Below are positions 4,283-23,680 of a stretch of DNA of 32,323 bases, in pieces. This DNA is from Deltaproteobacteria bacterium (GTDB lineage: Bacteria; Desulfobacterota; Binatia; UBA9968), in the NCBI GenBank assembly GCA_016180805.1, contig JACPAM010000111.1, forward strand, positions 1 through 32,323, read 5' to 3'. Position numbers and translations under genes: made by a program. The notes under the pieces are model-generated. The model was not told the DNA's origin. It searched no databases and saw only the letters and a program-made list of their open reading frames with translations. How positions within the stretch are numbered: position 1 is the stretch's first letter; each line of letters starts with the position of its first letter.

Positions 4283-5692
4283 TTACTCTTTTTCCGGGAT
4301 TCCCGGCTCGGTCATGCGCCATGGATCGAGAATTTTGTTTAGCCTGTCTTCCGGGAGAACCTTGTGCGCCAGCGAAACCTCCCGCACGGTCTTTCCGGTG
4401 GTAAAGGATTCTTTGGCGATCTTGGCGGCTGCGTCGTAGCCGATGACCGGCGCCAGAGCGGTCACCATCGCCAGGCTCTTTTCGATCATCTCTTCGCAGC
4501 GCTCCTGGTTAGCCTGGATTCCAACCACGCACCTCTCGGTAAAGGCGCGCACGGCGCTGGCGGTGAACGTGATCGCTTCCAGGAGCCTTAGCGCCATGAT
4601 CGGCATCATGACGTTGAGCTCGAAATTCCCCGCCTGACCACAGATCGTGATCGTGGCGTCGCAGCCGATAACATGGGCGGCGACCTGGAGGACCGACTCG
4701 CACATCACGGGGTTGACTTTTCCCGGCATGATCGAGGAGCCCGGCTGGGTATCCGGGAGCCCGATCTCCCCGATCCCGCATCTCGGCCCCGAGCTTAGCC
4801 AGCGCAGGTCGTTGGCGATCTTGGTCAGGCTTGCGGCCAGTGTTTTCAGGCTGCCGCTCAACTCCACGACCGCGTCCTTGGCGGCCTGAGCCTCAAAGTG
4901 ATTTTTCGCCTCACGAAAATTGACGCCGGTCATTTCGGAGATCTTTTTGATGGCTTTGGCGGGAAAGTCGGGGTGGGTGTTGATGCCCGTTCCGACCGCC
5001 GTGCCGCCGAGCGCGAGCTCTTCCAGGCCGGCCGAGGCGCGGCGGATTCGCTCTGCCCCGAGCTCGATCTGCCGCGCGTAGCCGCCAAACTCCTGGCCCA
5101 GGCGGATCGGCGTGGCGTCGGCCAGATGGGTGCGGCCGATTTTGACGATCCGGTCGAACTCCTGCGCCTTCTCTTTGAGGGCGAGATGGAGTTCGTCGAG
5201 GGCCGGCAAAAGCTCTCTTTGAATCGCCTCCAAGGCCGAAACATGAATGGCGGTGGGGATGACGTCATTGCTCGATTGGCTCATGTTTACATGGTCATTC
5301 GGGTGAACCTCCCTGCTCCCGCGCTGCTTGCCCAAAAGCTCGAGGGCGCGGTTGGCGATCACCTCGTTGGCGTTCATGTTCGTGGACGTTCCGGAACCCG
5401 TCTGAAAAATATCGACGACGAATTCTTTATCGAGTTTACCTTCTATGACCTCCGTTGCGGCCCGGCGGATGACGTCCGCAGTCTTGGGGTCGAGCAGCTT
5501 CAGCTCTTCGTTGGCGCTCGCGGCCGCGTGTTTGATGATGGCCAGGGCGCGGGTGAAACGGGGTGGAAAGCCGATACCGCTGATCGGGAAGTTGTCCACG
5601 GCGCGCTGGGTTTGGGCGCCGTAATAGGCGCTTTTCGGCACCTTGACTTCCCCCATGGAGTCCTTTTCGATCCGGTATTCCTGCACAGCCAT
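4283..5692 (-). CDS. fumC: Class II fumarate hydratase
   Basis: Full-length FumC with GSSIMPGKVNPV signature, TGSGTSTNMNANEVIANRA and SQSSNDVIPTA. Confidence 0.97.
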   Translation of the reverse strand: MAVQEYRIEKDSMGEVKVPKSAYYGAQTQRAVDNFPISGIGFPPRFTRALAIIKHAAASANEELKLLDPKTADVIRRAATEVIEGKLDKEFVVDIFQTGSGTSTNMNANEVIANRALELLGKQRGSREVHPNDHVNMSQSSNDVIPTAIHVSALEAIQRELLPALDELHLALKEKAQEFDRIVKIGRTHLADATPIRLGQEFGGYARQIELGAERIRRASAGLEELALGGTAVGTGINTHPDFPAKAIKKISEMTGVNFREAKNHFEAQAAKDAVVELSGSLKTLAASLTKIANDLRWLSSGPRCGIGEIGLPDTQPGSSIMPGKVNPVMCESVLQVAAHVIGCDATITICGQAGNFELNVMMPIMALRLLEAITFTASAVRAFTERCVVGIQANQERCEEMIEKSLAMVTALAPVIGYDAAAKIAKESFTTGKTVREVSLAHKVLPEDRLNKILDPWRMTEPGIPEKE

Positions 5693-5944: not shown

Positions 5945-6017
5945 CGAGCGAGGCTGCGGAGACGTCCGATTACAAACGGCACGACTCATGGCACGAACCC
6001 ATCGGCCGCAGAGTTAC

Positions 6018-6047
6018 GGGGACAGGCACGCAAGCGAGCCAGTCCCC
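6018..6047. repeat. REP-like hairpin B3, inserted in element A copy 2
   Basis: ggggacaggcacgcaagcgagccagtcccc, identical to B1/B2; insert 6012-6050 is flanked by (G)CCGCAG repeats at 6005-6011 and 6050-6056. Confidence 0.85.
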
Positions 6048-6105
6048 TCGCCGCAGCCGAGAGCGCGCTTCCCGAGGGAGCTTGGTCCATCGGCTGAATG
6101 CGAGC

Positions 6106-6138
6106 GGGGACAGGCACCGCTTCGCGGAGCCTGTCCCC
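6106..6138. repeat. REP-like hairpin B4
   Basis: GGGGACAGGC-A-CCGC-TTC-GCGG-A-GCCTGTCCCC; flanked by GAGC at 6102-6105 and 6140-6143. Confidence 0.85.
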
Positions 6139-6220: not shown

Positions 6221-7930
6221 CTAACTTCCGCAGGGGATCGTGACCGTGAAGGTGGAACCCTTGCCCGGCTCGCTCGTCACCGCGACGGTTCCGCCGAGCA
6301 TGTCGGTAAACTTCTTCACGATGTAGAGGCCGAGCCCGATGCCGCCGCGCGTTCGGCGGGCCGAGCTATCGCCCTGGTGAAAGATCCTGAAGATGGACGC
6401 CACGGACTCATGGCGGATGCCGATGCCAGTGTCCGTCACCTTGAACTCGACAGAGGCTTGAGGCGGGAGACGTGAGGCATCAGTTAAATCTTCTTCCGTT
6501 GACTGTTGCCCGTTGCCCGTTGCCTCATGCCTGGCGCCTTCTACCAGCCGGGCGGAAACCCGCACCTCTCCACGATCGGTGAATTTGATCGCATTGTTGA
6601 TGAGATTTTGCAGAATCTGCCTGAGCTTCACGCCATCGGTATGGATGGTTGGCAGGTCTGGAGGGTAATCCCACTTCAGCGCGAGGTCTTTGTCCGGAGG
6701 GTAGTCGTAGTCCGTTCGAAGCTCGTCTAAAAAATGGCTCAATCTCACCGGGCGCGAGTTGACCTTGATCGCGTGGGACTCGAGCCTGGTTGCATCGAGG
6801 ATGCTGCTGACCATACTCAGCAACTCATTGGAGCGACTGAGAATTTTGCCGATGACCTTTTCTTGCTCGGAGCTTGTTGCTCCCACCACTTTTTCCTGAA
6901 TCATCCGCGCGTAGCCGTTGATGACGGTGATCGGAGTCTTCAGCTCGTGTGACATAATACTCAGGAATTCGTCTTTCACCTTGTTCGCTCTCTCCAGGTC
7001 CGCTGCTTGTCTTTTCGTTTGTTCGAAGAGCCGGGAATTGTGGATCGCGATCGCCGCCTGTCCGGCAAGCGTCGAGAGAAATTCGATCTCGTCGTCGACG
7101 AAAAGGTGCTCCTCTTTCGTGTAGAAAGAGAGGACCCCCAAAGCCTCCCCTTTGGCGATCAACGGGACACCCAGAAAGGAGACCAGCCCCCGCTTGCGGA
7201 AGGACTCGGGCTCGCTGACCTGCGGGTCGGTATGCAGGTCAGACGACACCAGGGGGGTTTTCGTGTCGAACACGCGACGAGCCAGGTTGCCGCCAGAGTC
7301 CGAGAGCTCTGACTCCGTTTGGTCCTCATCGACATTCCGACTGACGATGGCCTCTAAGGCCTGGGTTTCTTTGTTGTATAACCGAACCGTTGTGGCGGAA
7401 TAGGGGAGAAGCTGATCGATTTTTGCCAGCAGCAACGTCAAGACTTTATGGAGCTCCAGGGTTGAGGTAATGGCCAGGTTGATATCATGCAGACCCGCCT
7501 GGCGCCGCCGATGGTGCTGAACCTGTTCTTCGGCCCGCCGCCGCTCCCGGCGCACTTTGGACTCCCCCAATTCCCGTTCGATGGCGGGAATGAGGCGGGC
7601 GAGGTTCCCCTTCATGATGTAGTCCTGGGCGCCCGCTTTCATCGCCGCCACGGCTGTGTCCTCGCCGATCGTTCCGGAGACGAAGATGAAGGGGATATCG
7701 AGCCCGCTCTTTTTGAGCAACGCCAACGCTCCGGTCCCGGTAAAGTTGGGCATGCTGTAGTCTGACACCACGATGTCCCAACTGTGTCGGGCAAGCGCCG
7801 CCATCATGTCCTCGGCGGTATCCACCCGTTCGTGGATGACATCGTAACCGGCGCGCTGCAGCGCCCGCACCAGAAGCAGCGCGTCGTCTTCCATGTCTTC
7901 GACGATGAGCACCCGCAGCGCTTGGCTCAT
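6221..7930 (-). CDS. Receiver-GAF-histidine kinase hybrid protein
   Basis: N-terminal receiver (IVEDMEDDALLL...VVSDYSMP...VSGT), GAF-like region, HisKA FLSIMSHELKTPITVI, HATPase N box and DTGIGI/GGIGLGLYIVKK. Confidence 0.93.
   Translation of the reverse strand: MSQALRVLIVEDMEDDALLLVRALQRAGYDVIHERVDTAEDMMAALARHSWDIVVSDYSMPNFTGTGALALLKKSGLDIPFIFVSGTIGEDTAVAAMKAGAQDYIMKGNLARLIPAIERELGESKVRRERRRAEEQVQHHRRRQAGLHDINLAITSTLELHKVLTLLLAKIDQLLPYSATTVRLYNKETQALEAIVSRNVDEDQTESELSDSGGNLARRVFDTKTPLVSSDLHTDPQVSEPESFRKRGLVSFLGVPLIAKGEALGVLSFYTKEEHLFVDDEIEFLSTLAGQAAIAIHNSRLFEQTKRQAADLERANKVKDEFLSIMSHELKTPITVINGYARMIQEKVVGATSSEQEKVIGKILSRSNELLSMVSSILDATRLESHAIKVNSRPVRLSHFLDELRTDYDYPPDKDLALKWDYPPDLPTIHTDGVKLRQILQNLINNAIKFTDRGEVRVSARLVEGARHEATGNGQQSTEEDLTDASRLPPQASVEFKVTDTGIGIRHESVASIFRIFHQGDSSARRTRGGIGLGLYIVKKFTDMLGGTVAVTSEPGKGSTFTVTIPCGS
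6453..6536. repeat. 7-nt-phased inverted repeat, locus 2, inside a CDS
   Basis: gaggctt gaggcgg gagacgt gaggcat cagttaa atcttct tccgttg actgttg cccgttg cccgttg cctcatg cctggcg: twelve in-phase heptamers; lies in frame in the kinase ATPase domain. Confidence 0.8.
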
Positions 7931-23577: not shown

Positions 23578-23680
23578 CGAGGGAAGCGCGAGCGAAGCTG
23601 CGGACGTCCGATTACAAACGCTATGACTCATGGCACAGGCCCATCGGCCGCAGCCGAGAGCGCGCTTCCCGAGGGAGCTT
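23578..23680. repeat. Dispersed palindromic element A, copy 3 (103 bp)
   Basis: GGGAAGCGCGagcgaagCTGCGG...CCGCAGccgagagCGCGCTTCCC arms around acgtccgattacaaacgctatgactcatggcacaggcccatcgg. Confidence 0.87.

Follow-up and report, generated by a model that had tools for sequence, protein, structure and literature searches.

Structure of the insertion in the window

At positions 6005-6056 of the window, the 32,323-nt stretch of DNA analysed here (contig C24 of the 4.46-Mb assembly G000), a short hairpin interrupts one arm of a repeat, element A, between two exact copies of the same motif. This raises the question of how such a palindrome came to be integrated there, and how much its junctions can tell us about the reaction. 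On the forward strand, element A runs up to the insertion point (5998-6011) as CCCATCG and a first GCCGCAG (6005-6011). The inserted unit follows, comprising a head of the GTKAC type, AGTTAC (6012-6017), which is not found in intact element A; the 30-nt hairpin GGGGACAGGCACGCAAGCGAGCCAGTCCCC (6018-6047), with arms GGGGACAGGC...GCCAGTCCCC, an A-A mismatch and a DNA fold of -10 kcal/mol (z -3.67); and a tail, TC (6048-6049). A second GCCGCAG (6050-6056), continuing into CCGAGAG, opens the intact right arm of element A and constitutes the fixed joint discussed below, with the remainder of the arm at 6057-6084. Read through, the junction is GCCGCAG-AGTTAC-hairpin-TC-GCCGCAG, an exact 7-bp direct repeat on both sides of a 38-nt unit that splits the element.

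The genes on either side of this composite, both on the minus strand, are a lyase/fumarase-like gene (4283-5692) and a histidine-kinase gene (6221-7930); the counterpart of this intergenic region in the congeneric genome G001 lacks the composite, containing a different repeat instead. A second hairpin, of loop variant 2, is found in this composite too, at its second motif site (6106-6138, plus strand), where it is followed by the tail TGA and then GCCGCG. Elsewhere on the plus strand of the window, copy 3 (23640-23679) retains the uninterrupted site CCCATCGGCCGCAGCCGAGAG..., the empty form, and copy 1 (489-587) carries two hairpins (508-537 and 558-587) in two exact 49-bp units of CCCGAGGGAGCTTAGTGAC-hairpin with one T between them, an arrangement to be explained either by a 14-bp target duplication plus another hairpin, or by local tandem duplication.

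A first-pass annotation of the window had described a hairpin inserted, with a direct duplication, into the arm of a pre-existing element. Both parts hold: the duplication is the exact 7-bp GCCGCAG, and uninterrupted CATCG-GCCGCAG-CCGAGAG is the usual form of element A. The GA duplication it reported (GCGGAGACGTCC) is likewise present in the composite. Its total of 45 added bp is correct, whereas its division into 39 + 6 should read 38 nt for the unit and 7 bp for the duplicate.

The hairpin family and element A

The element-A seed CCCATCGGCCGCAG occurs 192 times in the G000 genome, and the hairpin pattern yields 63 rows that represent 62 distinct places, one palindromic copy being counted on both strands; the reversed controls gave 0 in each case. 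Among 77 element-A right arms in this genome, 59 are intact, 15 have a hairpin immediately to their left, and 3 are of other form. Type 1 hairpins (n = 43) have the heads GTGAC (20), CTGAC (10) and GTTAC (2), the others being singletons; the head ends in AC in 40 of the 43 copies, and a T directly follows the hairpin in 39. Type 2 hairpins (n = 32) most often have GAGCC or CGAGC (9 each). The mobile unit consists of an unpaired GTKAC head, the GGGGACAGGC...GCCAGTCCCC hairpin and a T tail, and the sequences show it moving as that whole.

At 30-33 nt, capable of folding and present at 62 places, the palindrome falls within the 20-40 nt multicopy imperfect palindromes that define GTAG REPs, and the GTAG/GTGG tetranucleotide expected 5′ of such a palindrome does not characterise the 43 type 1 and 32 type 2 copies. 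The foot of the hairpin, GGGGACAG, fits GGGGWSAS, the terminal-repeat motif of TIRYT transposases. Because of this fit, together with the absence of a GTAG head, we place the hairpin nearer to the TIR repeats than to the GTAG REPs.

Nesting of palindromes is encountered repeatedly around this family. One family hairpin (L048, G000:C127:22603-22637 and beyond) has a further palindrome, GGGGACAGTCCCC...GGGGACTGTCCCC, in its loop, with a possible 3-bp AGC repeat at the edges, as in a nested insertion. Around element A there is often a further inverted pair, GAAGCCCGAGGGGGACGAGG...GGCCGCGG / CCGCGGCC... (e.g. L001, L085), so that element and frame form palindromes nested in one another. In G001, another hairpin, CGTCCGCCTGAGGCGGATCAGCCTCAGGCTGAAG, sits in the element-A right arm directly after GCCGCAGCC (L137, L281), and in G008 longer-loop hairpins lie inserted in the loop of another member of their family (L193, L201).

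Joints within element A

We mapped hairpin joints in the fetched loci of G000 and G001 onto the element-A/B consensus, scanning 74 hairpins and keeping 49, the remaining 25 having flanks that did not both match the consensus. The exact junction of the window, with the 5′ flank ending at 75 and the 3′ flank starting at 68, occurs in 5 of the 49, window included; other junctions at the same element-A site have 5′ flanks ending at 68, 69 or 72 and 3′ flanks starting at 65-68. In 48 of 49 cases across the whole set, the 3′ joint is confined to 65-68 (17 hairpins) or 108-112 (31 hairpins), where the two GGCCGCRG motifs have their 5′ edges; the lone exception is the tandem pair of window copy 1. The 5′ joint ranges from 32 to 113, and the overlaps between flanks extend from deletions through +38, with duplications of 1-7 at site 1. 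At this joint some bases are common to both sides (G at site 1, AGT at site 2). Where orientation was assessed beside the motif (n = 26), the 3′ side of the hairpin lies at the motif in 25 cases, one is unclear and none is reversed.

Insertions in element A are joined on their 3′ side at the 5′ edge of GCCGCRG, in a single orientation and with a variable 5′ side. These 49 hairpins are related by descent or conversion and are not 49 independent events, and the fixed 3′ joint may partly reflect common descent. The longest overlaps (L060, L072, L079, L135) were considered as target duplications and rejected as such, since we read them, like the deletions of L045 and L073, as hairpin-hairpin recombination. 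For element A itself, none of the 10 copies whose flanks are not B has a duplication, though its unsure ends make the test a weak one.

The window junction is real and useful, but it is one of a set: the 7-bp case at an element-A hot spot, possibly acquired through the copying of an element A that already contained it. Four other copies have the same junction, so that it is not unique, and a fresh insertion in the window is not required. Taken alone, the window copy says little on mechanism; the set across three congeneric genomes says more.

Duplications at unique sites

Since the element-A copies are not independent, we analysed hairpins outside element A. This set comprises 18 unique-site hairpins (11 in G000, 4 in G001 and 3 in G002), leaving out those within element A/B and the G001:C518 copy, which represents the same locus as G000:C133. 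Direct repeats were scored with the left copy ending at most 10 nt from the hairpin and the right copy starting at most 5 nt from it. A score of at least 6 is reached by 10 of the 18 hairpins, compared with 4.2% of 306 mismatched flank pairs, and a score of at least 8 by 5 of 18, compared with 0.33% of mismatched pairs. When the position constraint is lifted, 5/18 score at least 10; the corresponding fractions are 1.3% among mismatched pairs and 2.3% among 600 random sites. Adding four degenerate copies, none of which has a duplication (0/4), gives 10/22 versus 5.1% of 800 random sites.

The direct duplications at unique sites span 6-37 bp, with lengths including 6, 7, 21, 32 and 37. Eight of the 18 hairpins have no clear duplication; one of the ten that do, a 6-bp match on C68 (L041), may be due to chance, and some doubt attaches to G001:C732 (19-27 bp), whose duplicated sequence is a palindrome in its own right after GTTAC. 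At unique sites the presence of the hairpin is accompanied by target duplications of variable length. Target duplication is thus genuine, as the first-pass annotation supposed, and recurrent beyond the window, but a fixed size of 6-7 bp does not hold, given deletions to +38 in element A and duplications of 6-37 bp elsewhere. It had also named variable deletions as the finding that would count against duplication; these do occur at element-A site 2, yet the unique sites have clear duplications.

In the sister genus g7 and in G005, 0 of 8 related-arm, longer-loop hairpins at unique sites score at least 5 (the other hairpins there, most of them within another palindromic repeat or a second hairpin, were left uncounted), and we therefore restrict the claim to genus g1. 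A second hairpin family, GGGGTCAG...CTGACCCC, in G005, G008 and G015 reaches a score of at least 6 at 3 of 16 loci against 8.3% by chance, which is unconvincing.

Empty sites in related genomes

Several of these duplications can be compared with an uninterrupted ortholog. The sequence duplicated around the hairpin is present as a single copy in both G001 and G002 for the 21-bp case on G000:C6, in G001 for the 32-bp case on G000:C270, and in both G000 and G002 for the 37-bp case on G001:C789. A 6-bp case, G000:C71, is also single-copy in G001, but this is weak, as a lone 6-bp repeat could be chance. The copies of the long duplications differ at several bases, indicating that the insertions are not recent.

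Other loci were less informative. The insertions at G000:C133, which has a 7-bp duplication, and at G000:C225 are common to G001, leaving no empty site for the former. G001:C634 compared with G000:C237 gives a duplication of at most 3 bp with some local change; the orthologous sites of C82 and C256 are not clean; the ortholog of G001:C244 is interrupted by another insertion; and that of G001:C732 has no matching left flank. For G002:C2 and G002:C154 no usable ortholog was found, and at G000:C333, the ortholog of G002:C99, the same duplication surrounds a different hairpin. Around the hairpin common to G000:C133 (L049) and G001:C518, approximately 100 bp are near-identical while the flanks are about 88% alike, and this stretch is possibly a conserved regulatory region.

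Candidate enzymes

G000 contains 10 matches to Y1 transposases, among which L011-L018 are flanked by inverted repeats of 10-26 bp, mostly GGGGTCAG-like. When seven proteins were tested against NCBIfam, REP_Tyr_transpos (NF047646) was the best match in six, with one above and five below the cut-off, and three of these six also match DnaA in their C-terminal half; L010, the remaining protein, is an IS200 transposase. We consider a Y1/HUH protein of the RAYT/TIRYT kind to be the most likely enzyme. The first-pass annotation had labelled the hairpin a REP moved by a RAYT and proposed a check for such a gene. RAYT-like genes do exist in the genome, which sustains part of the label; the head GTGAC/GTTAC in place of GTAG does not fit it. 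Nor do the loci support the pairing of a GTAG-type REP with a RAYT: arms with GGGGACAGGC-type ends were found at 0 of 17 Y1 loci in G000, G001 and G002 (assemblies 91, 84 and 71% complete, some loci being cut by contig ends), the TIRYT-like genes of G000 having other TIRs. Similarly, Y1 elements of about 1 kb with inverted repeats reach a target duplication score of at least 6 in 0 of 22 cases, for a null of 4.8%.

Possible routes of integration

Our main reading, to which we assign a probability of roughly 0.4, is that the hairpin is a mobile TIR-like palindrome integrated at a strand-specific nick, its 3′ side being joined first, the target end then extended or trimmed, and its 5′ side joined last. 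One target strand would be nicked, and the 3′ end of the single-stranded hairpin would be joined to the 5′ side of the nick, making the fixed joint. The exposed target 3′ end could then be lengthened by strand displacement, resulting in a duplication, or trimmed instead, resulting in a deletion, before being joined to the 5′ side of the hairpin at the variable joint. We know of no description of such a nick-extend-join route for HUH transposases, and the wider proposal, that palindromes of the TIR/REP kind integrate in this manner, with synthesis before the second joining yielding duplications of 0-37 bp, is one we advance only tentatively.

For the window copy in particular, the chances are about even that the junction was made elsewhere, and that an element-A copy already bearing its hairpin spread by transposition or gene conversion; this concerns the window copy only, and the main reading can stand beside it where the family is concerned. 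The sharing of one exact junction by five copies and the absence of the composite at the G001 locus both fit such spread, as do L060, L072, L079, L135 and L073, in which a 5′ joint at site 2 is combined with a 3′ joint at site 1 in a way that resembles hairpin-hairpin recombination. On the other hand, several positions vary among the five right arms, the left half is a different one in two of these copies, and neighbouring junctions at this element-A site differ in both joints, implying that the site was used more than once. The same mixture of variable duplications and deletions, with the bases common to both sides of the 5′ joint noted above, could arise if freed hairpin fragments were captured by end joining at staggered breaks, where fill-in duplicates and chewing back deletes; but random breaks would not be expected to give a constant head, hairpin and tail, a single orientation and a 3′ joint fixed at GCCGCRG, and we regard such capture as unlikely, although it and retroposition are both still serious competitors of the main reading.

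Retroposition, with reverse transcription of the unit's RNA at a nick and variable cleavage of the second strand producing variable duplications, deserves mention because one fixed and one variable joint with duplications of 6-37 bp are reminiscent of target-primed insertion; with both a 5′ truncated series at unique sites and a poly-A-like tail absent, we find it improbable. It is more improbable still that the empty sites are secondary, an older hairpin with its duplication having been lost from relatives by precise deletion between direct repeats. Direct repeats flanking a palindrome do favour precise deletion, and the insertions at C133 and C225 are common to G001, but two sites are each empty in two relatives, requiring two losses, and the duplication would still have had to arise once. 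We give hardly any credence to the idea that the hairpin is simply a REP of the GTAG type, mobilised by a RAYT in the IS200/IS605 style, its 7-bp repeat being chance or target-derived: the NF047646 matches (six of seven proteins, one over the cut-off) speak for it, whereas the head is not GTAG, no gene has matching ends, and the target duplications at empty sites contradict it.

Comparison with known systems

The closest resemblance is to the self-complementary TIR repeats of TIRtrons and TIRYTs, which, in the available text of Di Nocera 2013 (PMC3733652) and Quentin 2018 (PMC6006769), share GGGGWSAS in their TIRs, the motif fitted by the foot of the hairpin, and are, like the hairpin, palindromic and dispersed. 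The setting is also alike, as the Y1 genes of G000 carry inverted repeats of the GGGG type and C-termini resembling DnaA. The hairpin departs from them in its GTKAC head, in that no gene with the same ends was found, and in its variable target duplications, the stem "duplicat" occurring 0 times in the available text of PMC3733652. With GTAG REPs and REPINs, as portrayed in the accessible portions of PMC2817692, PMC3116915 and PMC8266576, it shares an unpaired head on an imperfect palindrome of 20-40 nt and a large number of intergenic copies, some of them lying inside other palindromes, a nesting already known for REPs (PMC3733652, in the text available). It differs from those associated with a RAYT (TnpAREP) in having GTGAC/GTTAC rather than GTAG/GTGG as its head, in duplicating its targets and in the lack of any RAYT flanked by the hairpin at the 17 Y1 loci.

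IS200/IS605 elements, according to the accessible part of PMC2817692, produce no larger target duplications. The hairpin is like these single-strand transposition systems in its hairpin unit, its strand-specific target and a likely enzyme of the HUH family, and unlike them in duplications of up to 37 bp (21, 32 and 37 bp against empty sites). MITEs of DDE transposons are also short, non-autonomous palindromes with a target duplication, but theirs has one fixed length while that of the hairpin varies. Among the open-access titles and abstract openings listed in our searches, none names target duplications of variable length in connection with REP or TIR repeats. A natural junction that can be set against its empty site is a direct record of the integration reaction, and the joints described here make a concrete biochemical test of the spread of REP-like palindromes possible, as variable-length duplications combined with one fixed joint are not predicted by plain IS200/IS605 chemistry.
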